This document shows positions 4,288 through 63,131 of a stretch of DNA of 64,000 nt, in pieces. The stretch is from Desulfobulbaceae bacterium. Lineage in GTDB: Bacteria; Desulfobacterota; Desulfobulbia; Desulfobulbales; Desulfocapsaceae. The position numbers and the translations under genes were made by a program. Below the pieces are notes generated by a model. It had not been told where the DNA came from. It ran no database searches and was given only the letters and a program-made list of their open reading frames with translations. Location: positions 62,001 through 126,000 of the forward strand of contig JAGXHG010000032.1 of NCBI GenBank assembly GCA_024636345.1, in the 5' to 3' direction. Within the stretch, counting starts at the first letter, position 1; every line of letters starts with the position of its first letter.

Positions 4288-4890
4288 TCAGAAGGCTTCG
4301 GAAGGGGTGGTACCGTTGCCGGTCCGAGGCGAGATGGGGCCGATCTCAAGAACCGGAGATGCTTCAATCTTTCGGGCCTCCATCATGTCCACTATCTTTT
4401 CCAAGGCCAGGGTAATGGAAACGTGTTCCAGCTCAGGAAGGGTTTTTAAGGACTCGGCGAGGGTTTCCTGCAGAGGGGAGGGGGCCCTGGCGATCAGCGT
4501 TTCACCTCCCTCTGTCACACAGACCTGTACCTGGCGCCGGTCCTTGCTGCCCCGCTGTCGGACCGCCAGCCCCTTGTCTGCCAGGCGGTCAACTATTCCC
4601 ACAATCGTACTAGGGCTCAGGTAGACCCTGCTGGCCAACTGGGTAATTGTCAATGGCCCGCCCTTGGCAAGAGCCAGCAAACAAGCCAACTGCGGCCCGG
4701 TTATCTCGTACCCTTGAACCAATTTATGAGAATGGATTTCGACAGCCCGGATGATGCGCCGAATGGATTGAAGAATACGCAGTTCATAGCTGTTCTTCGG
4801 AACCAGTGGAGTGAATCCAGGCCCTAACAGAATCTCTCCGCCCCCTTCTGCAACAGATCTTTCGTCTTTTTCCGGTAATAAATTGTTCAT
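4288..4890 (-). CDS. MarR-family transcriptional regulator
   Basis: LACLLALAKGGPLTITQLASRVYLSPSTIVGIVDRLADKGLAVRQRGSKDRRQVQVCVTEGG winged helix; start MNNLLPEKD with SD GGGAG. Confidence 0.88.
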   Translation of the reverse strand: MNNLLPEKDERSVAEGGGEILLGPGFTPLVPKNSYELRILQSIRRIIRAVEIHSHKLVQGYEITGPQLACLLALAKGGPLTITQLASRVYLSPSTIVGIVDRLADKGLAVRQRGSKDRRQVQVCVTEGGETLIARAPSPLQETLAESLKTLPELEHVSITLALEKIVDMMEARKIEASPVLEIGPISPRTGNGTTPSEAF

Positions 4891-5486
4891 CAACTCCCTG
4901 CCATTCTTGTTTCGATTCAAATAATTCGCACACGAACAATCAGAACACAAACAAACACCGTTGTCAAGCCGGTGTCAAGATCTGGGCAGAGAGCAAATAA
5001 ACTGTCTGGAGTTACAGCAGATAAGCCGAACAGAGTTATGTACAATAGAGTCGAAAGGCATAATTGGAGGAAGGGAAAGAAAATTTACAGGCTGATCGTT
5101 TGACGCAGGCGAAACCAACACTAGTCTACTCGGTACGGGCAAACGCACTATTCTCCGCTGAAGAAGAGGGGTTGGATGCTTAGGGGGAGATCGGGGTGTG
5201 CCATAGCAGGGTTCAGGGGACACCATAGCTAAGTACCTCTAAATTCCATGCATTCTTCTGCCATGACCATTTTCCTATTTTCTCTAAAGAGTACGGAGAG
5301 ATCATTATCTCCTCCCCGTACTTCCTCTTCTAAAAACAAAAGCCGCACAACCCTCCTGGAAAAAGAGGTCTTTAATGATGAGTTCAAGAACCGCTCACTG
5401 CGGAGAATGGTCCGCTTCTCTCATTAAGAAGGAATCAGTTCAGAGGGCGACCCTGAAGTCCCCCCATCGCAGAAACAAGGACAGAA

Positions 5487-6164
5487 TCAACAGCCCTCGA
5501 CAGCCTTGACCTTTTTCTGATGGCACTTGGTGCAGCTGGTGGGACCAGCCTTTTTTTCCTTATGACAGCCCTGGCAGAGGGCGTGGGCCTTCTTTTTTCC
5601 CAACTCGTACGGACCAGGCTGCTGGTCGCCATGACAGACAACACAGCCAAAAGCCTCAGCATGTTTCTTGTGCAGCAAAACAACCTTGCCATTCTTGTTA
5701 TCAATAACAACGCTTTCCACCTTAGTTGTAACCGCCTGTCCGCTCACCTCCACCACGGACGCGGTTTGTTGCTCCATCTTCTCGGCGACCTCAACCTTTT
5801 CTTCCTGAACTGCCACTGCAGCCTGATGTTCAGCATTTATTTCAATCTTTTTTTCAACCGCTTCAACTACCTCTTTGGCCGCATCTGAAACCGCATCGGC
5901 CGCCTCTGCGACCTTCTCTTCCTCCACAGTGATTGCTTTTTCAACCACTGCATCCGCCGCGTTAATCGCTTCTGCAGCCTTCTGGGTCGTTTCTTCAAGT
6001 TTTTCTTTAGCCGCCTCGGTCTCTCCTACAGCCTTATCCATGGCCTGCTGCTCGGTAGTGGGTATCGTTTCCGACACCGGAGCCTCGGCTTTTTTTTCAT
6101 CCGAGGTGCAGCCCCACAACATCAGGACAGCCATCATCGCAATAACACTAAATTTCAGTTTCAT
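5487..6164 (-). CDS. lipoprotein with helical spacer and three c-type heme sites (cytochrome c3/c7-like)
   Basis: MKLKFSVIAMMAVLMLWGC lipobox; CVVCH, CQGCH, CTKCH; Ala/Glu/Val-rich central helix. Confidence 0.82.
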   Translation of the reverse strand: MKLKFSVIAMMAVLMLWGCTSDEKKAEAPVSETIPTTEQQAMDKAVGETEAAKEKLEETTQKAAEAINAADAVVEKAITVEEEKVAEAADAVSDAAKEVVEAVEKKIEINAEHQAAVAVQEEKVEVAEKMEQQTASVVEVSGQAVTTKVESVVIDNKNGKVVLLHKKHAEAFGCVVCHGDQQPGPYELGKKKAHALCQGCHKEKKAGPTSCTKCHQKKVKAVEGC

Positions 6165-6261
6165 AGTTTTTTTACTTGGACGTTGGAAGTAAAAAGGAGA
6201 CGGATTCAATCAGCGCCTCCCACTGCATACCATCTTTTTTAGCAGATCGGAGCCTACTCTT

Positions 6262-6417
6262 TTACCGCATATGAAAACCACTCCCTCCAAACAATCCAAT
6301 CAATCCGATAATGATCAAATATATGGCAACGATGTAGTTCAACAGACGCGGAGCAACCAGAATAAGAATACCGGCGATCAGTGATACCAGAGGGGCAAGG
6401 CTTAAATTCATGTTCAT
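6262..6417 (-). CDS. 51-aa membrane protein, DUF3096-like
   Basis: MNMNLSLAPLVSLIAGILILVAPRLLNYIVAIYLIIIGLIGLFGGSGFHMR*; read directly from sequence. Confidence 0.7.
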   Translation of the reverse strand: MNMNLSLAPLVSLIAGILILVAPRLLNYIVAIYLIIIGLIGLFGGSGFHMR

Positions 6418-6574
6418 GTTTTTATCTCCTTGGTCATTAGCTGTTTAGTTTTCGTTCGAAAGAGTATGGGGTCTACCGCACGTATTGGGTGTGCCAAGGG
6501 TATAGTAGTTCCTAATTTCCGGCAAGGTAGAAAAGACAGGCCAGAACTCATCCGGCCTGTCACGACCCAGCCTC

Positions 6575-7042
6575 TTACTTGACCATATAGTCAAAGAGGA
6601 ACTGCCGTTTTTCGCCGTTACCAAGCTTGGTACCCACCTCAAAAACGTACTTTCCCTTCTCACTTAAGGCCACATCAGCACCAAAACTTCCTTCCATAGC
6701 CATCATCTTTACCGCCTCCGTTTTTTTGCCGGTAGGATCGACGACCTTTACCGCAACCACCCCTGAGTCCAGGGCCTTGCCGGTGACGGTATCCGTAAAG
6801 GTGATCATGAGATGATTGGTCGTGCTCATGCCTGCCGCGGCCATGGCCTTACTGGTATCCAGCAGGTGGGCCATGGCCTTGACCCCGTCCACCGTTACTT
6901 CCGGCAGCATGATCTCATCGCCACCCATCTCCATGCCCCCCATATCCATACCGGCCATTGCTCCATGATCCGCTGCCTGAACTCCGACGGCCAAGACCAG
7001 AAAAAACAGGGCGCTTATCAGTTGCATCAGCTTCTTTTTCAT
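6575..7042 (-). CDS. exported Met-rich YtkA/FixH-like protein linked to metal efflux operon
   Basis: Signal peptide MKKKLMQLISALFFLVLAVGVQA; MAGMDMGGMEMGGDEIM; YtkA-like beta fold pattern. Confidence 0.7.
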   Translation of the reverse strand: MKKKLMQLISALFFLVLAVGVQAADHGAMAGMDMGGMEMGGDEIMLPEVTVDGVKAMAHLLDTSKAMAAAGMSTTNHLMITFTDTVTGKALDSGVVAVKVVDPTGKKTEAVKMMAMEGSFGADVALSEKGKYVFEVGTKLGNGEKRQFLFDYMVK

Positions 7043-7112
7043 TGTTTTTCTCCTCTTGAGATTATTTTGTAAAGAACGGATTATTCCGCATGAGAACAAA
7101 GTTTGTGCTGAG

Positions 7113-10100
7113 CTATGACCCTTCCACCTCGTCTGTGGCGGTGGCAATCATGCTTTTTTCCAGATTCCAGCCGCGCCAGAGAAAGAAGATGACCGGATAG
7201 ACCATCAGCTCCATGACACCGGAGGTCACCACCCCGCCTACCATGGGGGCAGCGATCCGCTTCATCACATCAGCGCCGGCACCATGGCTCCACATGATGG
7301 GAAGTAAACCGGCGATGATAACCGAGATGGTCATGATCTTGGGCCGGATGCGCTTGACCGCCCCATGATGGATGGCCTGGACCAGATCGCCCCGGGTGCG
7401 CATCCGGTCGGCATCTCCCCAAAGTTTGTGAGAGATATCGAGGTAGAGCAGCATCACCACCCCGGTCTCGGCATCAAGCCCAGCCAGGGCGATAATCCCG
7501 ACCCAAACCGCCACCGAGGTGTGGTAGCCGAGGAGATAGAGAAACCAGAAGGCGCCCACCAGGGAAAAGGGCACGGCCAGGAAGACGATGGCGGTTTTCA
7601 CCAGCGACTTGGTGTTTAAGTAGATGATCACGAAAATGAGCAGGATGGTCAGGGGGATGATCACTACCAGCCGCTCCTTGGCCGACTGCATGTATTCGAA
7701 CTGGCCGCTCCAGACGATGGAATAACCGGGGGGGAGCTTGATTTTGGCGGCCACCGCCGCCTGTGCCTGTTTCACATAGGTACCGATATCAATACCGGTA
7801 ATGTCCACATAGACCCAGGCGGTACGGCGGGCATTTTCGCTCTTGATAGCCGGCGGCCCCTTGTGCATGGTGATGGTGGCCACTTGGGAAATGGGAATAT
7901 GGGTGCCGTCACGCAGTGGTACCAGAATGCGGTGCAGGGCCGGCAGGTCGTTGCGATAGTCGCGCTGATAGCGGATGTTTACCGGATAGCGCTCCAACCC
8001 TTCAACCGTCTGGGTAATATTCAGGCCGCCAATGGCCGACTGGATGATGTCCTGCACCTCGCCGACCGTGAGACCATAACGGGCAGCGGCAGTGCGGTCC
8101 ACCGTAAAATCGAGATAGTTACCGCCCACTACCCTTTCAGAATAGGCACTCAGGGTACCGGGTAGGGTACCGATCAACGCCTCGATCTCCTCACCGATGC
8201 GGCTGAGCTCATTCAGATCGTTGCCCATGACCTTGATGCCCACCGGCGTCTTGATGCCGGTGGAGAGCATGTCGATTCGGGTCTTGATCGGCATGGTCCA
8301 GGCGTTAGTCAGACCGGGAAACTGGATGGCATTATTGAGCCGTTCAATGAGCTGTTCCGGCGTTATAACCTTTTGCTCAGGCCAAATCAGACGTAACGGC
8401 CGTTGCAGCCATTCCGGCCAGGGGCTGTAGAAGCGGCTGACCTTCACCTTGCGCCACTGCTCCTCTGGTTTAAGCATGATGGTTGTTTCCAGCATGGAAA
8501 GGGGGGCTGGATCGGTGGCGGTCTCTGCCCTGCCTATCTTCCCGAAGACGTGTTCAACCTCGGGAAAGGCCGCGATGATGCGGTCGGTCTGCTGCAGTAG
8601 TTCCTTGGCCTTGGTGATGGAGACCCCCGGCATGGTGGTGGGCATGTAGAGCAGGTCGCCTTCATAGAGGGGCGGCATAAACTCGGAACCCATCCGGCTG
8701 ATGGGCCAGGCAATGGAGGCGATCAGAAGCAGGGCCACCAGGATGGTACCTGTACGCCATTTGAGGACAAAATCAACCACCGGATGGTAGATCCGGATCA
8801 GCAGACGGTTGATAGGGTTGGCATGTTCCGGCTTGATGTTACCGCGGATGAACCAGCCCATAAGCACCGGCACCAGAGTGATGGAAAGCAGAGCGGCTGC
8901 ACCCATGGCATAGGTCTTGGTAAAGGCCAGGGGCTTGAAGAGTCGACCGGACTGCTCCTGCAGGGTGAAGACCGGCAGGAAGGAGACAGTGATGACCAGC
9001 AGGGAGTAGAAGAGGGTAGGGCCCACCTCTTTGGCCGAGTCCATGATAATCTCCCAGTGCGGCTTTTTCCCCCGGTCCCGCTCAAGATGTTTATGGGCAT
9101 TTTCAATCATGATGATGGCAGCGTCAATCATGGCCCCGATGGCGATGGCGATACCGCCCAGACTCATGATATTGGCGTTGATCCCCTGGGCATGCATGAC
9201 GATGAAGGCCATAAGAATCGCCACCGGCAGGGTGAGGATGGCGACAAAGGCACTGGGCAGATGAAAGAGAAAGAGCGCTGTCACCAGGGCGACCACGATA
9301 CTCTCCTCGAGGAGTTTTTCTTTTAAGTTATCCACCGCCCGCTCGATCAGGCCGGAGCGATCATAGACTGCCTTGACTCGGACGCCTTCGGGAAGCCCTG
9401 CCTGAAGCGATTCGAGTTTCTTCTTGACCTTCTCGATCACAGTCAGGGCATTTTCACCGTAACGCATTACGACAATACCGCCCACGGTCTCACCCTTGCC
9501 ATCGAGTTCCGTTGCCCCGCGCCGCAGTTCCGGCCCGATTCCTACCTCGGCCAGATCTTTGACCAGGATCGGGGTACCGGCACGGTCGGTGGAAACCACC
9601 ACCTGCTCAATGTCGGCCACCGACTTGATGTAACCCAGGCCCCGCACCATGAACTCGGTCTCGCCCATCTCCAGCAGGCGGCCGCCGACATCGTTATTGC
9701 TCTGTTGGATAGCGTGGCGGATCTGCGGAATAGTGACATGGTAGGCAAGCAAGCGGTTGGGATCCACCGCCACCTGGTACTGCTTCACATAGCCGCCGAT
9801 GCTCGCCACCTCGGAGACCCCTTCCACCGCCGCTAGCTCGTAGCGCAAGTACCAGTCCTGAATAGAGCGGAGCTGCTGCAGGTCATGATGGTCACTTTCC
9901 AGCACATATTCATAGACCCAGCCGACTCCGGTGGCGTCCGGCCCAAGACTTGGGGTGACCCCCTTCGGCAGCTTGCCGGAGGCATAGTTGAGATACTCAA
10001 GTACCCGGGACCGAGCCCAGTAGATGTCGGTGCCGTCGTCAAAGATCACATAGACAAAGGAAAAACCGAAAAAGGAGTAGCCCCGCACCACTTTAGCATG

Positions 10101-19789: not shown

Positions 19790-20251
19790 TCATTGCCGCA
19801 TAGAGGTCCGCAGACAGATGAGCTCCGTAGTCTGCCAACCCAGGCTCCGATAGAAGTCAAGGGCCGGGGTATTGTTGCGGTCGGCCAGGAGTTGCAGGCG
19901 CGACACCTTCTCTACCTTGGCCCAGTCGCTGATCGCTTCCATCAGCAGGTGGCCCACGCCGCGCCCGCGCCATTGTTCGTGGACAACCACATCTTCAACT
20001 AGCAGGGACAGGCCGCCCACAGCCGTGGAGACAAGCAACTGACCGGAACACATACCGACCACCTGGCCTTCAGCCTCGGCAACCAGGACACAGCCTCGTT
20101 CGTTATCAAGCATCAGGGCAAGGCCCCGCCGCTGTCTCGACTCATCGAAAATGAAATCCTCTTCGATTGCAAAAAGTGCTGCCAGTAAATAAATCAGGCT
20201 GTCAAGGTCAGCAGGTTCTGCGGTGCGTATGCTCGCCTTTACGTCGTACAT
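19790..20251 (-). CDS. GNAT-family acetyltransferase
   Basis: LVEDVVVHEQWRGRGVGHLLMEAISDWAKVEKVSRLQLLADRNNTPALDFYRSLGW. Confidence 0.9.
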   Translation of the reverse strand: MYDVKASIRTAEPADLDSLIYLLAALFAIEEDFIFDESRQRRGLALMLDNERGCVLVAEAEGQVVGMCSGQLLVSTAVGGLSLLVEDVVVHEQWRGRGVGHLLMEAISDWAKVEKVSRLQLLADRNNTPALDFYRSLGWQTTELICLRTSMRQ

Positions 20252-20303: not shown

Positions 20304-20609
20304 TTAGCTCGGTTGAGAAAATTCGATCCGAATATTTTCATCATCAGCCTGAGTTAACGTATACTGGCTGCCGTCGGTAAAAATCATTGCATGGGCCACG
20401 GCAACATTTTTCAGCTTGGCAATGGAGTCTTTGATCTCACTTTCTTCAGCCTCACTGTTGGTATGGATGAGGAGCTCCTTGTCGCTGACGGTGAATTGCA
20501 GAAGAAAGGCATTATGTTCCAAAAACACCAGATCCTCATAGGCGTAGGATATGCCCATGTCGGCAGCTTCAACAATTTCCGTTACAATCCCTACGGGTTT
20601 CAGGCTCAT
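20304..20609 (-). CDS. uncharacterized 101-aa protein, translationally coupled to the HEPN-like gene
   Basis: Start overlaps upstream stop (ATGA, 20606-20609). Confidence 0.7.
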   Translation of the reverse strand: MSLKPVGIVTEIVEAADMGISYAYEDLVFLEHNAFLLQFTVSDKELLIHTNSEAEESEIKDSIAKLKNVAVAHAMIFTDGSQYTLTQADDENIRIEFSQPS

Positions 20610-21061
20610 TTTTCATTCTTCCCGTCTAAAAGTTGTTTTTCCACCAAATTCTGCAACCTGCTGGCCAGATCCAGCATGACAGGAATTTCCTCCATGGCCG
20701 GGCCGGTGATATTGAACGTATCCACGTCACAGATCTCCTGATATTGATCAAGATTCAAAAGTCCCTCCCGTATGCCCGACATGGCGCCGGGAAAGGCCTC
20801 ATCCATAGCCTCGACAAGATCTTTCATGGTGTGGTTATTGGGTAATTTCCCCTGGCACATCAAGGCTGTCATGACGAATTTTTCAATTGCCATGGCAATA
20901 ATGTTGTACAGGATCACGGTAGTGAAGGCCTTTTTTTGCTGCGCATAAGCTGAGGATGCGGTCTTGAGGAAAGCTTTCCCTTCACCCCAGAAATCTTCCC
21001 ATCCCTGGATGGGCTGGGCCTTTTTGAGGTCGGATAGTGAAAAGTTTGGGGTCGGTTCCAT
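20606..21061 (-). CDS. HEPN-domain-like helical protein
   Basis: AYAQQKKAFTTVILYNIIAMAIEKFVMTALMCQGKLPNNHTMKDLVEAMDEAFP resembles HEPN helix pattern. Confidence 0.55.
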   Translation of the reverse strand: MEPTPNFSLSDLKKAQPIQGWEDFWGEGKAFLKTASSAYAQQKKAFTTVILYNIIAMAIEKFVMTALMCQGKLPNNHTMKDLVEAMDEAFPGAMSGIREGLLNLDQYQEICDVDTFNITGPAMEEIPVMLDLASRLQNLVEKQLLDGKNEK

Positions 21062-21709: not shown

Positions 21710-22015
21710 CTACGAGGAAATCAAATACTCTGCTGCGGGCTCGCCATCCTCTATGCCATCAAGAATGGTATCAATGACATCGGTGCTGCTTACCCCTTTA
21801 AACCACCAATTTTCAGGTTGTACCACCATGATTGGACCAGACTCGCACTGCTTGAGGCAGGTGGTTGCTGTGACCAGGCAGTCAAGGCCTCGATCAAGGA
21901 TTTCTTCCTCAATATACTGGAGGAATCCATCGGTCTGCTTGTGGCAGAGACCTTTTTTATCGCCCGCTACCCGAAAACTCTGGCAGACAAGGATTTGTCG
22001 TTCTGGGATTGCCAT
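21710..22015 (-). CDS. thioredoxin-like [2Fe-2S] ferredoxin (C. pasteurianum 2FeFd type)
   Basis: ILVCQSFRVAGDKKGLCHK...TTCLKQCESGPIMVVQPENWWFKGV. Confidence 0.82.
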   Translation of the reverse strand: MAIPERQILVCQSFRVAGDKKGLCHKQTDGFLQYIEEEILDRGLDCLVTATTCLKQCESGPIMVVQPENWWFKGVSSTDVIDTILDGIEDGEPAAEYLISS

Positions 22016-22083: not shown

Positions 22084-23241
22084 TTACTTACGGCACTTTT
22101 TGCCCTTTTTTCCACCACCATACAAGACATCAACCGTCCCTTCGATGCTGCCATCTGTGATCAAAACACTGATCCCCCGGCCACCCAGTGTCTTTCTCGG
22201 GCTCTCACCGGCACTGGCCGCCAGGAGGACAAAACAGTCCTTCAAGGTATCAGCCAGGATCTCCCAGCGAGACCCGCCAGTCCCCGGCTCCGGCAAAGTC
22301 CTGGTTTCAAGAAGACAGGTAAGCCCGTCTCCCCTGGGACCATAGATCAGCGCCTTGGCGGCATGCCCAAGATGAAGATCAACCTCCATACCACCAGAAC
22401 TTACCACCGCCGCGTTGGGACGCTCAGTGCTTGGCCTCGGACCGCAGCCGCAGCCAGTCCCATCAGCCGTTTTTGCTGCTACGATTTTTTCCGGAAGCAC
22501 CACAACAGAGAGATATTTCGCCATCTGTTCACGGATCCCGGCCATCTGTTCAAAGCTTGGTCGTTCAAGCAAGACCTCCTCTCCCTCTTCCGGATCGTAG
22601 GCCGCCACAGCCATGGACTGCACTCCCAGCTCTGCCATGGACCTGGCAATTTCCACCGCATGCTCGTCATTATATCCGGGATAGATCGTGGTTCTGACAT
22701 GTACCGTGCATCCGGCCAGGACAAAGGCCTTCACAGCCCCTTGCTGTTCACTCAGGAGCAACTCTGTTGCCGTAAACAGAGGAACAGTCTTGGACCCCGG
22801 CCGAATCCAGGCATACAACTTCTGCATCACCTCCAGATCAACAGCATCCACCAGCAGGGTGACATGGCTAACCCCGGCCTCAACCAGCTGCCGAGCCGCC
22901 TTTTCACCTCCCAATCCGAGTGTTGTGATGCCTAAGGCCATTTCCGGATATCGTTTACGAACCAGAGCCAGCATTGCAAAGGTCGACTCGGAATCCGCCA
23001 GCGGATCACCGGGACCGGCAATCGTCACTCCATCCACCCTGCCCCCCTCGCTCAGGATATCAGCAAGCAGGGCCAACGCCTGTTCTGGAATCATGGCCTG
23101 CCGAGACTCACCGGTCGCTGCAAATCGGATCCGGTTATTGGCACGCGGAGCAACCGCCATCTCAAACCACCGTCCCTGCGGAGAATGTGGCTGGTCAGCG
23201 GAACAACAACATGTGGTTGTATTAAGAGATGTCATTTTCAT
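22084..23241 (-). CDS. NifB-like protein with degenerate radical-SAM motif and C-terminal NifX-like domain
   Basis: Aligns along its length with NifB at 42299-43570 (VAPRANNRIRFA vs VAPKCNIKCNYC; AGPGDP; GVSHVT; GYNDEHAVEIA vs GVNDHHVEETA; LHLGHA vs QHLGET). Confidence 0.85.
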   Translation of the reverse strand: MKMTSLNTTTCCCSADQPHSPQGRWFEMAVAPRANNRIRFAATGESRQAMIPEQALALLADILSEGGRVDGVTIAGPGDPLADSESTFAMLALVRKRYPEMALGITTLGLGGEKAARQLVEAGVSHVTLLVDAVDLEVMQKLYAWIRPGSKTVPLFTATELLLSEQQGAVKAFVLAGCTVHVRTTIYPGYNDEHAVEIARSMAELGVQSMAVAAYDPEEGEEVLLERPSFEQMAGIREQMAKYLSVVVLPEKIVAAKTADGTGCGCGPRPSTERPNAAVVSSGGMEVDLHLGHAAKALIYGPRGDGLTCLLETRTLPEPGTGGSRWEILADTLKDCFVLLAASAGESPRKTLGGRGISVLITDGSIEGTVDVLYGGGKKGKKCRK

Positions 23242-23322
23242 TCACTGGTGAAGATGATTATAATGCTGAACTTTTTTAAGTCCCCCCGAAAAACAGGAGG
23301 GATATATCATCCTTGTTCTTTC

Positions 23323-24696
23323 TTACAGGACAAGTTCAAACGTCGTCTCTGGGTCATCCCGATCCTTGCGATCCTGCAGAGCTCCAAGAATCTTTTCCAG
23401 AAGCCGTAAGGCCCCCTTGTATCCAACCGTGGGGAAATATTGATGTCCCTGACGGTCAAGGATAGGGAAACCCCAGCGCACCAGAGGGATATCCTCGTCC
23501 CGAGCGATATACTTGCAATAAGTATTACCCATAATCAAATCTACCGGTTCGTTCTTGATCCACTGATGGAGCAGGAACATATCCCCCTTGGCCTTGACAT
23601 TAACCTCAAACGGCATGTCCTTGGTAATCTCTTTGATCCGTGCTTCAAAGGCTTTGCCAGGGGTGCCGGTCACAATATGCACCGGACACATATCCATGGA
23701 AACCAGAAACTCAGTCATTGCAATGAGCTGATCGGGATCACCCACCAGCGCCACCTTTTTATGATAGAGGTACTGATGCATATCAGAGATCATGTCGACC
23801 AACTGTCCCCGTTCCATGGACAGCTCATCCGGGACCGTAACACCGCCCATAATGCGCAGGGCATCAATAAAGCGATCCGTGGCCTTCAGGCCAAACGGCA
23901 TATCCAGTACCTGACAGGGAACCTTATTTTGAGTATCCAATGTACGGGCCGCATCACCAGAACACCATTCCCCAAGGGCCAGGGTACCGATGGAATCACC
24001 TGCGGATATGAGTTCCTCCACCGTGGTGCCGCCATCCGGAAACATCTTGTATTCTCCGGACAGAGGACCGTTCAAGACACCAGAGGTATCAGGAAAGAGG
24101 ATGGTCTTCACCCCGAGCATATTGGTCAGCCGCTTGATCTCTTCCATATCCGACGGCTCTACCCAACCAGGGATAACATTCACCTTACCATTCTTTTTAC
24201 CGGTGCTCTCAGCGAGTCCGGCCATGGATTTAACCATGTTAGAAAATCCAGTAACATGCGACCCCACATAACTGGGAGTAGAGGCGCTGATCATATACTT
24301 ACCCTCGGGTATCTTGCCCTCGGTGATCGCCTTTTTCCTGATCTGCTTGAGATCATCACCAATGGTCTCGGAAAGACAGGTGGTATGGGCGGCAATAATC
24401 ACCGGATTATAGACGGCAAAGATATTTTCGATGGCCTGAAGCATATTTGCCTGGCCGCCAAAGACCGACGATCCTTCCGTAAAGGAACTGGTAGCAGCGG
24501 AGACCGGTTCTTTGTAATGCCTGGTCAAGGCGCTTCGATGATAGGCGCAGCAACCCTGAGAGCCGTGACTATGCGGCAGACAACCATGGATGCCGAGTGC
24601 GGCATACATGGCACCGATGGGCTGGCAGGTCTTGGCCGGATTGATCATCAAGGCGCTGCGCTCGGTTATTTCTTTTGGTGTGTGTCGTAATAACAT
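23323..24696 (-). CDS. nifK: nitrogenase MoFe protein beta subunit
   Basis: MLLRHTPKEITERSALMINPAKTCQPIGAMYAALGIHGCLPHSHGSQGCCAYHRSALTRHYKEP. Confidence 0.97.
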   Translation of the reverse strand: MLLRHTPKEITERSALMINPAKTCQPIGAMYAALGIHGCLPHSHGSQGCCAYHRSALTRHYKEPVSAATSSFTEGSSVFGGQANMLQAIENIFAVYNPVIIAAHTTCLSETIGDDLKQIRKKAITEGKIPEGKYMISASTPSYVGSHVTGFSNMVKSMAGLAESTGKKNGKVNVIPGWVEPSDMEEIKRLTNMLGVKTILFPDTSGVLNGPLSGEYKMFPDGGTTVEELISAGDSIGTLALGEWCSGDAARTLDTQNKVPCQVLDMPFGLKATDRFIDALRIMGGVTVPDELSMERGQLVDMISDMHQYLYHKKVALVGDPDQLIAMTEFLVSMDMCPVHIVTGTPGKAFEARIKEITKDMPFEVNVKAKGDMFLLHQWIKNEPVDLIMGNTYCKYIARDEDIPLVRWGFPILDRQGHQYFPTVGYKGALRLLEKILGALQDRKDRDDPETTFELVL

Positions 24697-24740
24697 GGTT
24701 AACCTCGATAGGTATTTAGTCTCTATTCTGTAGGTATTTT

Positions 24741-24780
24741 GTCTGTAGTCTTTTAGCTCACAGCCTAAAAGACTACAGAC
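24741..24780. other. perfect 16-bp inverted repeat between nifD and nifK
   Basis: GTCTGTAGTCTTTTAG-CTCACAGC-CTAAAAGACTACAGAC. Confidence 0.9.
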
Positions 24781-24795
24781 GATCAACCTGAATAC

Positions 24796-26433
24796 TTATT
24801 CGCATCCGTAACTGGCAGAAAGTTGGGGATTGTTCTGCCATGGGGCCTTCATGTAGCTCCAGACCTTGCTGTTCACCAGGCGGTCGATTTCATGATAAAA
24901 ATTGACCGCACCCTTAAACCCGGCATACGGACCACCCGAATCGTAGCTGTGCAGTTGTTTCATGGGCACGCCCAGCTTCTGGATGGAATATTTTTCCTTG
25001 ATTCCGGCACAGAAGATATCCGGCTTCATCAATTCCACCATTTTTTCCGCCTCGTACTGGTTCAGGTCATCAATGATCAGGGTGTCTTTATCCATATCAG
25101 GAAGCAACCCGTCATACTTTTTAAACTCGTAGCCGGCGTCTTCCAGCGCCTTGATCTCCTCTACACTCTTGCGTGGCTTGAAGCGGGTTTCATCTGCCTC
25201 AACCTCTAATTCTTCGATGTTCCGGCTGTCGGCATCCACTTTGAGATCAGGAATGACCTGACGTCCTTCATAGTCATCACGATGCGCAAACTCGTAACCG
25301 GCTGAGATGACCTTCATACCCATCTCGGCGAACAACTCCTGGTAATGATGGGCCCGGGAACCGCCCAAAAACATCATCGCGGTCTTGCCCTCGGTACGGG
25401 TCCGAACATCAGCACGAGCCTCCAAAACTTTCGGCATTTCCTCAGCGATAACCGCCTCCACCTGATCGATGAATTCCTGATCACCAAAGTACTGGGCGAT
25501 CTTGCGCAACGACTTGGCCGTGGCATCGGCACCGATAAAGTTCACCTTGATCCAGGGGATGCCATATTTTGTCTCCAGCATGTCGGCCACATAATTAATG
25601 GAGCGATGACACATAACGGCATTCAGGTCGGCTTTATGGGCCGAAGCGAACTGGTCATAGGTGGAGTTGCCGGAAAAGGTGGCAATATTAGTGATTCCGC
25701 ATTTTTTGAAGATGCGATCAATCTCAAAGCCGTCACCTCCGATGTTGTACTCGCCCAGCAGGTTTATCTTGTATTTGCCGGGTTTTTCCGCATCATTTTC
25801 GCCGACGATATGCCGGAAGACCTGGTTGTTGGCAATATGGTGGCCGGCAGACTGGGAAACACCCTTGTACCCTTCACAGGAGAAGGCATAGACATTGCAG
25901 TCACCAAATTTTTCCTTCATCCTTTTGGTCACGGTATGGATATCATCACCGATCAGACCCACCGGGCAGGTCGCAAAAACGGCTATTGACCGAGGATGAA
26001 AGAGGTCATAGGCTTCCTGGATGGCCTGGGCCAGCTTCTTCTCACCACCAAAAATAATATCTGAATCCTGCATGTCGGTACTGAAGCAGTAATTCATGTA
26101 GTTCGCACCATCCGTCCCGGCATCTGTCTGATTCCGGCGGGTCAGCCAGGCATAAAAGCTGCAGCCGATGGGACCATGGACAATATTAACGATATCCCGG
26201 GTCGGGCCCATGATAACACCCTTGCAGCCGGCATAGGTACAGCCGCGCATGGTGATGATTCCGGGTGTGGTACGAACGTTTGCCGTAATCTCTGGGGTTT
26301 CATTCTCCAGAGCCTCATTGATCATAATTTGTTTGGAGCGCTTGCGGGCGACCTTCGTCGGATACTTAGACAGCAGCTCCGCCTTGACATGAGCAGGATC
26401 CCACTGCACCATTTTTTTCTTAGTTGTTGCCAT
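24796..26433 (-). CDS. nifD: nitrogenase MoFe protein alpha subunit
   Basis: MRGCTYAGCKGVIMGPTRDIVNIVHGPIGCSFYAWLTRRNQT; 545 aa. Confidence 0.97.
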   Translation of the reverse strand: MATTKKKMVQWDPAHVKAELLSKYPTKVARKRSKQIMINEALENETPEITANVRTTPGIITMRGCTYAGCKGVIMGPTRDIVNIVHGPIGCSFYAWLTRRNQTDAGTDGANYMNYCFSTDMQDSDIIFGGEKKLAQAIQEAYDLFHPRSIAVFATCPVGLIGDDIHTVTKRMKEKFGDCNVYAFSCEGYKGVSQSAGHHIANNQVFRHIVGENDAEKPGKYKINLLGEYNIGGDGFEIDRIFKKCGITNIATFSGNSTYDQFASAHKADLNAVMCHRSINYVADMLETKYGIPWIKVNFIGADATAKSLRKIAQYFGDQEFIDQVEAVIAEEMPKVLEARADVRTRTEGKTAMMFLGGSRAHHYQELFAEMGMKVISAGYEFAHRDDYEGRQVIPDLKVDADSRNIEELEVEADETRFKPRKSVEEIKALEDAGYEFKKYDGLLPDMDKDTLIIDDLNQYEAEKMVELMKPDIFCAGIKEKYSIQKLGVPMKQLHSYDSGGPYAGFKGAVNFYHEIDRLVNSKVWSYMKAPWQNNPQLSASYGCE

Positions 26434-26467: not shown

Positions 26468-26842
26468 CTAGACGATGGACTTGAGCCCGGTTTCTCCGGT
26501 ACGAACGCGGAGAGCATCCGCCACTGGCAACACAAATATCTTGCCATCACCTGGTTTGCCGGTCTGATTGGTTTGGATGATCGCCTGCACCACATCATCG
26601 ACAAGCTCATCCTTGACCACCACCGTCACCATCCGCTTGGCATACAGTTTGCCTTTTTCGCCAAGCAGTGACGCTGCTTCCTCATAGCCTTGATTCGCCC
26701 CCTCAAGGACATGCATATTAACAAAACCCTTGCCCCGGCCATGGGCCTCATGGGCAAAAAAGGCGTCAATTCCGGCATCAGTCAGGGCCTGTTTGGTCTG
26801 ATTCATCATATTTATCCGCACGACTGCAATCACCTCTTTCAT
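26468..26842 (-). CDS. nifI2: PII-family nitrogenase regulator NifI2
   Basis: MKEVIAVVRINMMNQTKQALTDAGIDAFFAHEAHGRGKG; position nifH-nifI1-nifI2-nifD. Confidence 0.93.
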   Translation of the reverse strand: MKEVIAVVRINMMNQTKQALTDAGIDAFFAHEAHGRGKGFVNMHVLEGANQGYEEAASLLGEKGKLYAKRMVTVVVKDELVDDVVQAIIQTNQTGKPGDGKIFVLPVADALRVRTGETGLKSIV

Positions 26843-27195
26843 ACCGGTCTCCTCTCGGATTCAAATTCGGTCTCCTTAACCCCGGAGCTGATGGTGTAGG
26901 CCTCCTCCACATCACTGACGAAGATCTTCCCATCGCCAAAAGCCCCTTTGGCCCCGGACTTGGCCGTTTTCATGATGGTATCAAGGACGAAATCCTTGTC
27001 CGCCGGGTTAATCACGCTCATAAGCATGACCTTGGGGATCTCGTCATAGGTAACATCGCCAATCTTTATGCCACGCTGCTTGCCGCGGCCTGCCACCGAA
27101 TACTTGGTCACTGAAGGAAATCCCGCATCCATCAAGGCTGAAAGAATCTTGTCCGCTTTCTCTGGTCTGACAATGGCTCTGATCATGGTTAACAT
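26839..27195 (-). CDS. nifI1: PII-family nitrogenase regulator NifI1
   Basis: MLTMIRAIVRPEKADKILSALMDAGFPSVTKYSVAGRGKQRGIKIGDVTYDEIPK. Confidence 0.93.
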   Translation of the reverse strand: MLTMIRAIVRPEKADKILSALMDAGFPSVTKYSVAGRGKQRGIKIGDVTYDEIPKVMLMSVINPADKDFVLDTIMKTAKSGAKGAFGDGKIFVSDVEEAYTISSGVKETEFESERRPV

Positions 27196-27249: not shown

Positions 27250-28209
<960 letters not shown>

Positions 28210-39381: not shown

Positions 39382-39438
39382 TTTCTCTGGTTAAAGAAAG
39401 TCTGTAAACACCCCTTGGCATCAGGAAGGAGAATCGGC

Positions 39439-40821
39439 ATGGAAGCGTTACTTGAAGATCGACAGGAACAGGTTCACCGCACCGGTGAACAACCCTTTAC
39501 CCTGGTGTGCAACAAAGACAGCCTGGCCGGGGCGGTGAGCCAGAGGGCCTGCGTCTTCTGCGGATCACGGGTGGTGCTTTATCCCATTGCCGACGCACTG
39601 CATCTGGTGCATGGGCCCATAGGATGTGCGGTCTATACCTGGGATATTCGCGGCGCCCTATCCTCTGGCCCGGAGCTGCATCGGCTCTCCTTTTCCACCG
39701 ATCTCCAGGAGCGCGACGTGATCTTTGGCGGTGAGGAAAAACTATACCGGGCCCTGATCGAGCTCATTGACCGTCACAGCCCAAAAGGCGCCTTTGTGTA
39801 TTCGACTTGTATTGTCGGCATTATCGGCGACGATCTGGAAGCGGTGTGCAGGCGGGTGGAGGCTGAGAAAGGAATTCCGGTGATTCCGGTGCAGTCCGAA
39901 GGATTCAAGGGCAACAAGCGGGCTGGATATACGGCTGCCTGTAATGCAATGGCCAGGATCATCGGCACGGGTGACACCGCCGGCATCTCCCCTTATTCCA
40001 TCAATATCCTGGGGGACTTTAATCTGGCGGGCGAGATCTGGATGATCCGTGAATACTTTGAACGTATGGGGGTGCAGGTTGTTGCCAATATCACCGGCGA
40101 CGGCAGAATTGCCGATCTTGCGCGGGCGCACGGTGCGGCACTGAACGTGGTGCAGTGCTCTGGGTCCACCATGGATCTGGCCAAGATAATGGAAGAGCGG
40201 TACAGAGTTCCCTCCATCCGGGTCTCCTATTTCGGCATCGAGGATATGGCCCAGTCTCTCTATGACGTGGCTGAGCATTTTGGTGACCCGGAGATGCTGG
40301 AGAAGACCAGGAAGCTGGTCAAGGAAGAACTGGCCCGGGTTGTACCTCAGTTGCAGAAGTACAGAGAGGCCCTGGCCGGTAAAAAAGCGGCCATTTATGT
40401 CGGTGGCTCGTTCAAGGCCTTTTCCCTGGTCAACGCCTTTCGTCTTCTCGATATGCAGGTGGTGATGGTGGGTTCTCAGACCGGCACCGAACAGGAATAT
40501 CGGGAACTGGCCGAGATTACCGATCCCGGCACGATCATTGTCGATGATGCCAATCCCCTGGAGCTCACCTCCTTTCTTGAGGAAAAAGAGGTGGATATCC
40601 TGGTCGGCGGAGTCAAGGAACGACCCATTGCCTACAAACTGGGTGTGGGCTTCTGTGATCATAACCATGAACGCAAAGAGGCCCTGGCCGGTTTTCAGGG
40701 GATGCTCAACTTTGCCGAAGAGGTCTATTCCTCGGTGATGAGTCCGGTCTGGCGCTTTGCCATGCGGACCAAAGATAAGGATCTTGTGACAGAAACCAGC
40801 AAGACCATTGTCAAAGGATAA
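39439..40821 (+). CDS. nifE: FeMo-co scaffold protein NifE
   Basis: QRACVFCGSRVVLYPIADALHLVHGPIGCAVYTWDIRG. Confidence 0.94.
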   Translation: MEALLEDRQEQVHRTGEQPFTLVCNKDSLAGAVSQRACVFCGSRVVLYPIADALHLVHGPIGCAVYTWDIRGALSSGPELHRLSFSTDLQERDVIFGGEEKLYRALIELIDRHSPKGAFVYSTCIVGIIGDDLEAVCRRVEAEKGIPVIPVQSEGFKGNKRAGYTAACNAMARIIGTGDTAGISPYSINILGDFNLAGEIWMIREYFERMGVQVVANITGDGRIADLARAHGAALNVVQCSGSTMDLAKIMEERYRVPSIRVSYFGIEDMAQSLYDVAEHFGDPEMLEKTRKLVKEELARVVPQLQKYREALAGKKAAIYVGGSFKAFSLVNAFRLLDMQVVMVGSQTGTEQEYRELAEITDPGTIIVDDANPLELTSFLEEKEVDILVGGVKERPIAYKLGVGFCDHNHERKEALAGFQGMLNFAEEVYSSVMSPVWRFAMRTKDKDLVTETSKTIVKG

Positions 40822-40864: not shown

Positions 40865-42220
40865 ATGTCAAAGAATCCTCCCAATTATATATCCACCACT
40901 AATGCATGCAAACTTTGCACCCCGCTTGGGGCCTGTCTGGCCTTCAAGGGAATCGAGGGCGCTGTCCCGTATCTGCATGGATCACAGGGCTGCGCCACCT
41001 ATATGCGCCGCTATATTATCAGCCACTATAATGAACCCATTGATATCGCCTCCTCCTCACTCTCTGAGAAGAATGCCATCTATGGGGGCGGCCCCAACCT
41101 GAAAATGGGTCTGGTCAATGTAACCCAGAAGTATCAGCCAAAGCTCATCGGCATTGCCACCACCTGTCTGACTGAGACCATTGGTGACGATGTGGGCAGG
41201 TACCTCCACGAGTTTCATCGGGAAACCGTGGGCACCATGCCGATCATGGTTCGAGTCTCCACCCCCAGCTATAACGGTACCCACATGGAGGGATTTCATG
41301 CCGCAGTGACAGCAGTGGTGGAGCAACTGGCCGAAGGCGGTGAGGCGGTTCAGGGGAAGATCAATTTGCTGCCAGGGTTTATCTCGCCTGCCGATAAGCG
41401 TTATGTCTCTGATATACTGGATGATTTTGGACTGGACGCCACGATTTTGCCAGATATCTCTGATACCATGGATGGCCCGGCTACCAGTAAGTATGACAAG
41501 ATTCAGCCCGGCGGCACACCTCTGGCTTCCATTGCCACTATGGGTCGGGCCAGCGCCACCATCGAATTTGGCCGAACCCTTCATGGGAAGACTGCAGGTG
41601 CACTCCTTGAACAAAAACATGGCGTGAAGCGCATTAGCCTTGGCGTGCCCATTGGCATTGAAGAAAGTGATCTCTTTTTTGCTTCCTTAAGCATGCTCAG
41701 TGGTCGACCCATTCCCGAGAAGCATGTTCAGGAACGGGGTCGGTTGGTGGACAGCTACATTGACTGCCACAAGTATATCTTCGGGAAAAAAGCCATCGTT
41801 TACGGTGAAGAGGATCTGGTAGTGGCCCTGACCGCCTTTCTGGCCGAGATTGGTGTCGTGCCCGTACTCTGCGCCTCCGGCGGCAAGAGCGGTAAGCTGG
41901 CCGCGGCCATCAAGGACACAACCGGAGATATTCTGGCAGAGCAGCCACTGGTCTTTGAGGGCATGGACTTCTTCGATATCAGCGAAATGGCTGAGAGCCT
42001 GGCCCCGGATCTGCTTATCGGCCATTCCAAAGGCTATCCCCTGTCCAGAAAACTGGAAATCCCTCTGATCCGGGTGGGGTTTCCCATCCATGACCGGATG
42101 GGTGGTCAGCGGATTCTTCATCTTGGTTACCGAGGAACTCAGGCCCTTTTTGATCAGGTGGTCAATGCGACCCTGGCCCGCAAGCAGAGTGATTCGTCTG
42201 TTGGCTATAGCTACATGTGA
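40865..42220 (+). CDS. nifN: FeMo-co scaffold protein NifN
   Basis: TTNACKLCTPLGACLAFKGIEGAVPYLHGSQGCATYMRRYIISHYNEP. Confidence 0.94.
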   Translation: MSKNPPNYISTTNACKLCTPLGACLAFKGIEGAVPYLHGSQGCATYMRRYIISHYNEPIDIASSSLSEKNAIYGGGPNLKMGLVNVTQKYQPKLIGIATTCLTETIGDDVGRYLHEFHRETVGTMPIMVRVSTPSYNGTHMEGFHAAVTAVVEQLAEGGEAVQGKINLLPGFISPADKRYVSDILDDFGLDATILPDISDTMDGPATSKYDKIQPGGTPLASIATMGRASATIEFGRTLHGKTAGALLEQKHGVKRISLGVPIGIEESDLFFASLSMLSGRPIPEKHVQERGRLVDSYIDCHKYIFGKKAIVYGEEDLVVALTAFLAEIGVVPVLCASGGKSGKLAAAIKDTTGDILAEQPLVFEGMDFFDISEMAESLAPDLLIGHSKGYPLSRKLEIPLIRVGFPIHDRMGGQRILHLGYRGTQALFDQVVNATLARKQSDSSVGYSYM

Positions 42221-42298: not shown

Positions 42299-43570
42299 AT
42301 GACTATTGATTATAATCGGCATCCCTGTTTCAACCCTAAGGTTCAGGGCCAGTTCGGCCGGGTGCACCTGCCTGTGGCCCCCAAATGCAATATCAAGTGC
42401 AACTACTGTAACCGCAAGTATGATTGCGTCAATGAGTCACGACCGGGGGTGACCTCCACCATCCTTTCACCGGAGCAGGCCCTGGTTTATATGGGCAAGG
42501 TGCTGGAGGCGGAACCGCGCATCAGTGTTGCAGGTATTGCCGGCCCAGGTGACCCCTTTGCCAATCCGGATGAAACCCTTGGCACCATGCAGCTTCTGCG
42601 CAAGAAATATCCGGAGCTGATCCTCTGCCTGTCCACCAATGGCCTGGGCCTCTACCCATACATTGACGAGGTGGCGGATATCGGGGTCTCCCATGTAACG
42701 GTGACAGTCAATGGCATTGATCCCCAGGTTACCAAAAATATCTATGGCTGGGTACAGGATGGCAATATATCCTATCACGGTGTTCATGCGGCAGAGCTAC
42801 TTCTGGCACGACAGTTGAAGGCCATTGAAAAGCTCAAACAACGAGGAGTGATCGTCAAGGTTAACTTTATTGTGGTACCCGGGGTCAATGATCATCATGT
42901 GGAAGAGACGGCCAAGTTCATGGCCGGGATGGGCGTAGACCTCTTTAACTGTATGGCCCTGTTGCCCAATGCAGGCACGGTCTTTGCCGATGTTATCGAA
43001 CCAGATAAAGAAACGATGGCCAGGTTGCGCGGCGCCGGCGAAAAGCATCTGCCGCAGATGCGCCACTGTAAGCGTTGCCGGGCCGATGCCGTTGGACTCC
43101 TGGGTGCTGACCGCTCCGGAGAAATGGCCGGATGTTTAAACGCCTGTGCCTCAATGCCTGCCAATCCAGGGAATATACGTCCGTATGTGGCAGTGGCCAG
43201 TATGGAGGGAATGCTCGTCAATCAGCATCTGGGTGAGACCAGCCGCTTTATGATCTGGGAGCAGAATCCTGATAAGACCTTCCGGCTTGTTGAAGAGCGT
43301 CCGGCACCCATTCCAGGCAGTGGCATTGGCCGTTGGCAGGCCATGACCCGTATTCTTTATGACTGCCGGGCTGTGCTGGCTAGCGATATGGGTGAGACTC
43401 CCCGCGAGATCCTGCAAAAGCAGGGGATAGAACCGATTACCATGTCAGGATTTATTGAAATGGGTCTTAAGGCTATTTACAGCGGTGAGGGATTGTCCAA
43501 ACTGAAACGGCGGGAGAAAAAGAGTTGCGGCAGTGGACACTGCCAAGGGACGGGAACTGGTTGCGGTTGA
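42299..43570 (+). CDS. nifB: nitrogenase cofactor biosynthesis protein NifB (intact radical SAM plus NifX-like domain)
   Basis: HPCFNPKVQGQFGRVHLPVAPKCNIKCNYCNRKYDCVNESRPGVTS. Confidence 0.97.
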   Translation: MTIDYNRHPCFNPKVQGQFGRVHLPVAPKCNIKCNYCNRKYDCVNESRPGVTSTILSPEQALVYMGKVLEAEPRISVAGIAGPGDPFANPDETLGTMQLLRKKYPELILCLSTNGLGLYPYIDEVADIGVSHVTVTVNGIDPQVTKNIYGWVQDGNISYHGVHAAELLLARQLKAIEKLKQRGVIVKVNFIVVPGVNDHHVEETAKFMAGMGVDLFNCMALLPNAGTVFADVIEPDKETMARLRGAGEKHLPQMRHCKRCRADAVGLLGADRSGEMAGCLNACASMPANPGNIRPYVAVASMEGMLVNQHLGETSRFMIWEQNPDKTFRLVEERPAPIPGSGIGRWQAMTRILYDCRAVLASDMGETPREILQKQGIEPITMSGFIEMGLKAIYSGEGLSKLKRREKKSCGSGHCQGTGTGCG

Positions 43571-61187: not shown

Positions 61188-62753
61188 ATGGTTAGTTCTT
61201 TACGGCCTCCCAAGCAGTATCAGAGTGAGATTTTTCAGATAAGAAAAGGAGCCCCGGAAGTAATGGTCCCGGATACGTGGCAAAAGACTAACAATGTTCT
61301 TTGCGCTCTGCGGCTCTATGCGAGGCCAAAGGTTTATTGCACTATTGAGACCATGCCAATATCATCATCCATCTTAGTTGAACCCGAATCAATCACAGAG
61401 ATACTGAATGGTGTGCCCCTTGGCATTATTCTCCTCGACCGGTCATTATGTGTTCTCCGGATGAACCGTTTTTTTGAAGCCCTTACCGGTTATTCTGAAG
61501 AAGATTCCCTTGGTATTCCCGGGAATTTTATCGTCCGCAGCGACTTGCACAGCAAAGGCCAGATTTTTCGTCAGATACTGGAGAGTGGTGAGAGCCGTGT
61601 CCAGGAAGGCACCATCATCAACTGTCATCGGAAAAAGCTTCCTATCCTTTTTACCATCTCTCCTTTGCATGACAGTCAGGGGCAAATAGCCGGGCTTATC
61701 ATTGTCCTTGAAGATCTGTCCTCACTACAGCGTGCTGAACGAAATGCAGGCGGAGCTGATGGTATGGGTAAAATCCTGGGGCATAGTCCCAAAATGCAGG
61801 AAGTTTTTGAACTCATACCTGTCCTGGCGCGAACCGACGCCTCACTTCTTATTACCGGGGAAACGGGCACAGGAAAGGATATGATAGCCGAAGTCATTCA
61901 TCAGACCTCGAAAAGAGCACGGCAGCCTTTTATCAAGATAAACTGCGGAGCTCTGCCGGAGGCCCTTCTCGAGTCCGAGCTCTTTGGTCATGTCCGCGGT
62001 GCTTTTACAGGCGCTGTCACGGACAAACCCGGTATGTTCCGTCTTGCCCAGGATGGCACTATCTTTCTCACAGAAATAGGAGACCTGCCTTTATCCCTCC
62101 AGGTGAAACTTCTCACTGTGCTTGATGACAGGGAATTCTATCCGGTGGGGGGGAGTAAAAAAGTAAAGGTGAACGTCAGGGTGATTGCCGCCACCCATCG
62201 TTCCTTGCGGGAGCAGGTAAGGGAGAGGTTGTTCCGGGAGGATCTTTTTTACCGCCTAAATGTGTTACGGATTCATCTTCCTCCTTTGCGGGAAAGAGAA
62301 GGCGATATCCGCCTTCTTCTTGACTATTTCCTCCGGGACTTTGTCTCCCAGCTCGGGAGCCATATTAAAGGATTTTCCAAGAGCTGCCTTGAACTGCTCC
62401 TTGCCTATGGCTTTTCAGGTAATGTCCGAGAACTCCGTAATATTGTCGAATATGCAGTCAATATCTGTCCCGGGGAACAGATAACACCTGAACATTTACC
62501 CAAATATCTTTTCGCTCCGGAAAGCCACCAGAAAAGTGTTGTTCCGGGCCAACCGGCCTCTGTCTTGTCCAGAGAAGAACAACCACATCAGACTACTAAT
62601 AAAACAGAAACACATTCTTCGGGAAACTGGAATGAAACGGAAAGGGAAATGATCCTGGATGCCATGAAAAAAACCGGCGGCAACCGCACCAAGGCTGCCG
62701 AACTTCTGGGCTGGGGTCGAACAACCCTTTGGCGTAAACTTAAGGCACTTTAA
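61188..62753 (+). CDS. PAS-domain sigma54-dependent Fis-family activator
   Basis: PAS-like N-terminus; [57 protein letters not shown]; Fis HTH GGNRTKAAELLGWGRTTLWRKLK; exact start uncertain. Confidence 0.93.
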   Translation: MVSSLRPPKQYQSEIFQIRKGAPEVMVPDTWQKTNNVLCALRLYARPKVYCTIETMPISSSILVEPESITEILNGVPLGIILLDRSLCVLRMNRFFEALTGYSEEDSLGIPGNFIVRSDLHSKGQIFRQILESGESRVQEGTIINCHRKKLPILFTISPLHDSQGQIAGLIIVLEDLSSLQRAERNAGGADGMGKILGHSPKMQEVFELIPVLARTDASLLITGETGTGKDMIAEVIHQTSKRARQPFIKINCGALPEALLESELFGHVRGAFTGAVTDKPGMFRLAQDGTIFLTEIGDLPLSLQVKLLTVLDDREFYPVGGSKKVKVNVRVIAATHRSLREQVRERLFREDLFYRLNVLRIHLPPLREREGDIRLLLDYFLRDFVSQLGSHIKGFSKSCLELLLAYGFSGNVRELRNIVEYAVNICPGEQITPEHLPKYLFAPESHQKSVVPGQPASVLSREEQPHQTTNKTETHSSGNWNETEREMILDAMKKTGGNRTKAAELLGWGRTTLWRKLKAL

Positions 62754-62780: not shown

Positions 62781-63131
62781 ATGAAAATACTGATCACCAT
62801 ATCCGGCGATAATGTAGCCCCTCGATTTGACATGGTCTCCGAGCTCTTAATTGCAAGTTACAATCCCCAGGGGCTCACGGGAAAACCTCGTACCATACTC
62901 ATGGCAGGACCTTCTCCTGAAGAGCTCTGCAGCCTTATTCTCAAAGAGGATATAAACATAGTCATTTGCGGAGGGATTGAAGAACGCCACTATAAATATC
63001 TTGCCTGGAAAAAAGTAGAGGTCTTTGATTCTGTTATCGGTCCCTTTAATGAAGTCCTTGATCTGGCAATGAAGAACAAGTTGCGGGCCGGTACGATTTT
63101 GCTCTCTGCAAGAAATGTGAGGAACAACTGA
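62781..63131 (+). CDS. NifX/NifB C-terminal-type domain protein
   Basis: MKILITISGDNVAPRFDMVSELLIASYN...INIVICGGIEERHYKYLAWKKVEVFDSVIGPFNEVLDL. Confidence 0.82.
   Translation: MKILITISGDNVAPRFDMVSELLIASYNPQGLTGKPRTILMAGPSPEELCSLILKEDINIVICGGIEERHYKYLAWKKVEVFDSVIGPFNEVLDLAMKNKLRAGTILLSARNVRNN

Follow-up and report, generated by a model that had tools for sequence, protein, structure and literature searches.

A full-length homologue of NifB in which all three [4Fe-4S] sites are gone or broken is encoded directly after nifK in the window, the 64,000-nucleotide stretch of DNA from a Desulfobulbaceae bacterium that was analysed. To judge by its residues, radical-SAM chemistry of the NifB kind is beyond this protein, here called pseudo-NifB. 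It is somewhat probable, from its sequence and by analogy with NafY, that pseudo-NifB serves apo-NifDK as a non-catalytic carrier or insertase of cofactor, derived from NifB through the stepwise loss of catalysis in a nifB duplicate.

Gene and neighbourhood

The initial annotation placed a full-length, two-domain NifB homologue at 22084-23241, directly after nifK. These coordinates are right and both domains are found by Pfam; the gene is on the minus strand and reads from 23241 down to 22084. The window genome is in 41 contigs and is 83% complete. The nearest named relative is a Desulfocapsa sp. MAG, whose version of the protein is 95% identical. The nif features of the window are:

21710..22015, minus: thioredoxin-like 2Fe-2S ferredoxin (61.8 bits to NF041612; resembles PDB 1f37 and 5abr), immediately after pseudo-NifB
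22084..23241, minus: pseudo-NifB open reading frame, 385 aa (radical-SAM-fold barrel and NifX-like domain, SAM-cluster motif absent)
23323..24786, minus: nifK, directly upstream of pseudo-NifB
24796..26433, minus: nifD
26468-26842, minus: nifI2
26839-27195, minus: nifI1, after nifH
27250..28182, minus: nifH open reading frame, the true start probably being inside it
39415-40821, plus: nifE
40865-42220, plus: nifN
42299..43570, plus: intact catalytic NifB with all motifs present, the comparison protein

The order on the minus strand is nifH, nifI1, nifI2, nifD, nifK, pseudo-NifB, the 2Fe-2S ferredoxin and a TIGR01616-like (nitrogenase-associated, ArsC-like) protein, with 81 bp between nifK and pseudo-NifB. 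The plus strand carries nifE, nifN, the intact nifB and nifA. The window holds two separate clusters, and pseudo-NifB is with nifHDK, apart from nifENB.

A GC-rich hairpin is present around the gap between nifK and pseudo-NifB (23230-23340, minus; z -2.1, 5 of 200 shuffles as good) and is possibly an attenuator or processing site. Two small conserved proteins, of 151 aa (20606-21061, minus) and 101 aa (20304-20609, minus), recur in many nif loci of the order downstream of pseudo-NifB and its ferredoxin neighbour. Pfam gives no match for the 151-aa protein and, for the 101-aa one, only a weak match to mSLOG, below the cut-off. A GNAT acetyltransferase (19790-20251) is a third regular neighbour.

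Domain layout and predicted fold

The window protein matches the Pfam families Radical_SAM (31 bits) and Nitro_FeMo-Co (29.1 bits), both above the gathering score. At 131.5 bits it misses the cut-off of 343.65 for the nifB equivalog TIGR01290, and TIGR02663 (NifX) is absent from its NCBIfam matches, as it is from those of the window genome. The two domains are:

22507..23160, minus: radical-SAM-type barrel, aa 28-245; a high-confidence prediction, with NifB as its closest solved fold
22111..22425, minus: NifX-like (Nitro_FeMo-Co) domain, aa 273-377; here conservation within the family is highest

The AlphaFold2 model of pseudo-NifB (50 sequences) has a mean pLDDT of 85.8, with low confidence at residues 1-18, residues 253-265 and the C-terminus, and retains the NifB fold. 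Its best solved matches are NifB structures (6y1x, E 6.5e-20; apo-NifB 7jma, TMt 0.92, 1.9 A), and 7bi7 is also among the fold matches. Since these are the best matches, the barrel is predicted to fold as it does in NifB but to hold none of the clusters. A viral fold library gave generic radical-SAM matches only.

Layout and fold are thus common to pseudo-NifB and the two-domain bacterial form of NifB, the radical SAM NifB-co synthase, as are the GPGDP, YxW, Q166, N191, HLG and DC motifs. Pseudo-NifB differs from NifB in being without CxxxCxxC, the NESRP segment and the K2 CxxC, in its place after nifK, and in a shift of conservation to the NifX domain. The architecture of a NifB-type barrel followed by a NifX-like domain is found both by Pfam and by fold matching. 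The N-terminal part, predicted to be a radical-SAM-type barrel, is not the helical domain of the NafY type. A search with PF16844 (the NafY N-domain) matched 0 of 58 genomes, but the control was likewise unmatched, so this negative carries no weight.

Loss of the cluster sites

In the NifB of Methanosarcina acetivorans, the ligands of the SAM cluster are C50, C54 and C57, those of K1 are C30, C63, C129 and H43, and those of K2 are C264, C274 and C277 (PMC7145814; PMC6053413). These were transferred to the window NifB by motif and the aligned columns were read, leaving out C264, for which the window NifB has no clear counterpart. The site of the lost SAM motif is:

23119..23154, minus: aa 30-41, APRANNRIRFA against APKCNIKCNYC in NifB, where CxxxCxxC has been lost

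The cysteines of CxxxCxxC are replaced by A, I and A, rather than by A, R and A as first annotated. Also lost are HPC, the K1 histidine, the third K1 cysteine, the C-terminal CxxC and the NESRP segment; what had been described as a shortened DCVNESRPGV segment is missing. The three motifs used as a NifB filter in PMC5715403, which are HPC, ExRP and Cx2CRxDAxG, are all absent from the window protein.

The losses extend to the orthologues. Cysteines at the first and second SAM positions (NifB C30 and C34) are present in 0 of 81, and a lone third-position cysteine is present in 12. The segment with the K1 cysteine (C43) of DCxNESRP is missing in all 81. The K2 CxxC is never intact, its first cysteine being found in none of the 81 and its second in 5. 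All the tested ligand positions are intact in the comparison set of 25 NifB sequences. With no cysteine at C30 or C34 and no C43 segment in any orthologue, neither a SAM cluster nor NifB catalysis is to be expected. The proposal of a non-catalytic homologue is therefore borne out across the family: CxxxCxxC is intact in 0 of 81, and relatives that retain the cysteines are not found among them.

The TCCCS N-terminus and the GTGCGCG linker, to which the initial annotation drew attention, are traits of near relatives and not of the family. A C-x(0-2)-C near the N-terminus is present in 32 of the 81 orthologues only, which rules out the N-terminal cysteine cluster as a family-wide, NifE-like cluster-binding arm.

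A published survey discarded 28% of putative NifB entries, most of them without Cx3Cx2C, and judged these to be NifX (PMC5715403). Members of the pseudo-NifB family may be among the discarded entries, though they are full-length and NifB-like. Homology-based counts of 'NifB' in such genomes would include a protein unable to make NifB-co. In the open-access literature searched, neither a description of the family nor a characterised family already covering this architecture was found.

Distribution and operon position

A total of 33 orthologues were found among 58 relatives. In the GTDB collection there are 146 related stretches, of which the best 80 all belong, to judge by their titles, to Desulfobacterota. 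For the order, 109 genomes were surveyed (at least 95% complete, plus the window genome), and the two proteins were separated by E-value, with orthologues at or below 1e-105 and NifB at about 1e-72 to 1e-85. By this split, 78 genomes have both proteins, 5 have NifB only (G040, G260, G045, G046 and G461), 1 has pseudo-NifB only (G497) and 25 have neither. Pseudo-NifB is present, that is, in 78 of 83 genomes with nifB and in 1 of 26 without. One of the NifB-only genomes, G045, has a second, weak match (G045:C105:10487-11350, 1.7e-20) that contains an in-frame TAA and may be a decayed copy. In a maximum-likelihood tree pseudo-NifB forms one clade apart from NifB, with 100/100 support.

In 77 of 80 loci the gene directly before it is nifK, on the same strand and at a distance of 32-302 bp. 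The exceptions are L096, which has intervening genes, L061, which starts at the gene, and L111, a contig without nifK. In L096, from Candidatus Electrothrix gigas, nifK and an intact pseudo-NifB gene are separated by unrelated genes that span about 5 kb (4868-9803). Divergent members from two further families of the phylum (L122 14668-15693 and L124 3497-4723) are also located between nifK and the ferredoxin, and have barrels without the SAM motif.

A 2Fe-2S ferredoxin gene is directly downstream in 76 of 80 loci, and both it and pseudo-NifB are present in G415 (4.0 Mb, 2 contigs). It could be that pseudo-NifB works with this ferredoxin, protecting the MoFe protein or feeding electrons to it, and has no cofactor role. 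The adjacency would fit this, as would the resemblance of the ferredoxin to 2Fe-2S ferredoxins of nitrogen fixers. However, Nitratidesulfovibrio vulgaris and L125 have the ferredoxin gene right after nifK, with no pseudo-NifB between them, so the ferredoxin does not need pseudo-NifB, and an invariant cofactor-type histidine would be left unexplained. This reading is very unlikely. The direct joining of nifK and fdx at these two loci makes insertion of a nifB copy between them the simplest history.

Selection and conserved residues

It is hardly credible that pseudo-NifB is a nifB copy in decay or a product of assembly error. Decay would fit a barrel that is without the catalytic residues and changes faster than that of NifB, but the frame is open, and at least 11 families of the order, one-contig genomes and named isolates included, show the same losses in a gene at the same position. 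Such recurrence across genomes, families and isolates rules out a strain-specific loss, a frameshift or an assembly error. By the Nei-Gojobori method, the comparison with the nearest relative gives a dN/dS of 0.15, and other pairs give 0.10-0.25, values that are rough because dS is near 1 in several pairs; for nifK it is mostly 0.04-0.09. Rows for NifB from loci without a nearby nifB were cross-hits to pseudo-NifB and were left out. Relaxed decay is ruled out by dN/dS well below 1 together with an NifX domain that is more conserved than NifB's own. The suggestion that the gene is under selection thus stands, with constraint still evident (dN/dS about 0.1-0.25) and retention in most nifB-containing genomes.

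The domains were compared in the 19 loci having both proteins, window included (171 pairs). Mean pairwise identity in pseudo-NifB is 0.42 for the barrel and 0.66 for the NifX-like domain, against 0.69 and 0.60 for the same parts of NifB. The NifX domain is more conserved than the barrel in 171 of 171 pairs for pseudo-NifB and in 3 of 171 for NifB. Conservation is inverted relative to NifB, the barrel being relaxed and the NifX-like domain conserved. The conserved residues of this domain include:

22372..22374, minus: His290 of DLHLG, in the alignment column of NifB's cofactor-binding-type His; HxG motif as for NafY H121; 81 of 81
22315..22317, minus: Cys309 in the family-specific YGPREDGLxCLLETR motif; 74 of 81
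22234..22236, minus: Cys336 (DCF), common to NifB; 81 of 81

Of the motifs first noted as conserved, PGDP is part of a family-wide GPGDPLA, while GVSHVT is not a family-wide motif.

The motif histidine of NafY, H121, is the key ligand of FeMo-co, and H35 of NifX coordinates NifB-co (PMC8496260, PMC13128457). The H-x-G ligand of NafY and NifX is present in pseudo-NifB as H290, which suggests that cofactor could be bound there. NifY and NafX are without the motif histidine and have been proposed as placeholders or antagonists (PMC13128457). A regulatory reading would make pseudo-NifB a pseudoenzyme, either partner or decoy, that by pairing with NifB or NifEN adjusts the supply of NifB-co. A paralogue of the same fold could compete for partners, and pseudo-NifB occurs almost only alongside NifB. 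Yet the barrel, which a mimic of NifB would need, is the relaxed part, and the histidine missing from the proposed placeholders is invariant here. No positive evidence for a regulatory decoy was found, and the reading is quite improbable.

Stepwise loss and origin

Remnants of the cluster sites persist in the Desulfovibrionaceae. Five members of this family retain HPC and the K1 histidine, and they are the only ones among the 81 orthologues to keep HPC. The third K1 cysteine (C110) is kept by four of these five, and all five keep one cysteine near the former CxxC. GRxH is kept in early-branching Desulfovibrionaceae members, and G093 also retains HPC and GRIH. In the NifB-rooted tree, L090 branches first, followed by the Pseudodesulfovibrio group and then all others (97/90, 97/90, 100/100); L090 retains STNG, as NifB does. 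With a partial K1 site retained in the first-branching Desulfovibrionaceae, the loss appears to have been stepwise. The order read from the sequences would be the SAM cluster and NESRP first, with the K1 and K2 remnants lost later. Horizontal transfer between groups, combined with a loss at a later date, is a possible alternative.

Proposed function

In the reading that we favour, the ancestral operon would have been nifHI1I2DK-fdx, and a nifB duplicate would have entered it between nifK and fdx. The catalysis of this duplicate would have been lost stepwise, through the SAM cluster and NESRP segment and later the remaining K1 and K2 ligands, and the copy would have turned into a dedicated non-catalytic nitrogenase-cofactor protein. 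The NifX-like C-terminal domain would bind NifB-co or FeMo-co via the invariant His290, perhaps aided by Cys336 or Cys309. The emptied barrel would be a docking body, most likely on apo-NifDK. Pseudo-NifB would then hold the cofactor site open and deliver FeMo-co, which in Azotobacter is the job of NafY with its unrelated N-terminal domain. Cofactor binding, partner and direction of transfer are here what we infer.

Pseudo-NifB resembles NafY and NifY, the gamma-type proteins of the MoFe protein, in having two domains with the NifX-like one at the C-terminus, in a gene near nifHDK and, as in NafY, in the HxG cofactor histidine. The gene order nifHDKTY likewise has nifY near nifHDK. It differs in that its N-terminal part is a NifB barrel, not NafY's helical domain, and it is not a sequence member of the NafY/NifY family. 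The N-domain of NafY binds apo-NifDK and its NifX-like domain takes up FeMo-co; while apo-NifDK awaits its cofactor, it is capped by NafY or NifY (PMC8496260; PMC6016461). AnfO is likewise a two-domain assembly factor that binds apo-nitrogenase and cofactor, although its N-domain is the NifX-like one, its C-domain binds the cofactor, and it is without a NifB barrel (PMC11938142).

An NafY-like insertase with a docking dead barrel is proposed because of the NifX-like domain recognised by sequence and the position and co-inheritance with nifDK. A role as carrier or chaperone would fit the invariant histidine, the shift of conservation and the slot after nifK. This slot and the co-variation with NifD could, however, come from operon linkage alone. 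Distances of pseudo-NifB track those of NifD (r 0.65) more than those of NifB (0.46), NifE or NifN, in a mirror-tree comparison that is weak and confounded by that linkage. The fast evolution of the barrel is odd for a docking surface on the highly conserved NifDK. It is possible but doubtful that the emptied barrel itself receives or cradles the cluster, which the NifX-like domain then hands to apo-NifDK in a FeMo-co route independent of NafY. The K1-site cysteine and histidine ligands still kept in the barrel by early-branching relatives bear on this.

The NifX-like domain resembles NifB-co carriers too, and an earlier step in the cofactor path is possible. The main rival, which is unlikely, is a NifX-like shuttle that takes NifB-co from NifB, the relative of the barrel, to NifEN. 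NifX and VnfX share with pseudo-NifB a NifX-like domain with a cluster-binding histidine; they are small, single-domain proteins, whereas pseudo-NifB carries the whole NifB barrel and adjoins nifK. A shuttle would agree with the NifB fold, the invariant NifB-co-type histidine and the K1-site residues of early-branching members (HPC, GRxH and, in four of five, C110). It would also agree with the lack, in 118 genomes of the order, of any NifX that passes the curated cut-off. This lack fits the favoured reading as well, as does the result for the window genome, where the PF02579 matches include no standalone NifX or NafY beside nif. Yet at least 12 genomes with pseudo-NifB also carry a short, weak NifX-like ORF, which weakens the idea of a simple NifX replacement. 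The location with nifHDK and not nifENB, even where the clusters lie apart as in the window, and the closer tracking of NifD also argue against a shuttle.

What is known of how FeMo-co reaches nitrogenase from NifEN comes almost entirely from Azotobacter and Klebsiella. That an order of anaerobic diazotrophs conserves a catalytically dead NifB in its structural operon suggests that a factor for handling the cofactor evolved there independently. This order includes cable bacteria and probably sulfur disproportionators, and many sulfur-metabolising bacteria keep pseudo-NifB beside their nitrogenase genes. It would be a pseudoenzyme derived from a radical-SAM enzyme with sequence intermediates still visible, and could be of use as a part in nitrogenase engineering.

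Away from the nif genes, the window also encodes a 116-aa NifX-family protein (62781-63131, plus) with a PF02579 match just below the cut-off. Its gene directly follows that of a sigma-54-type regulator (61188-62753).
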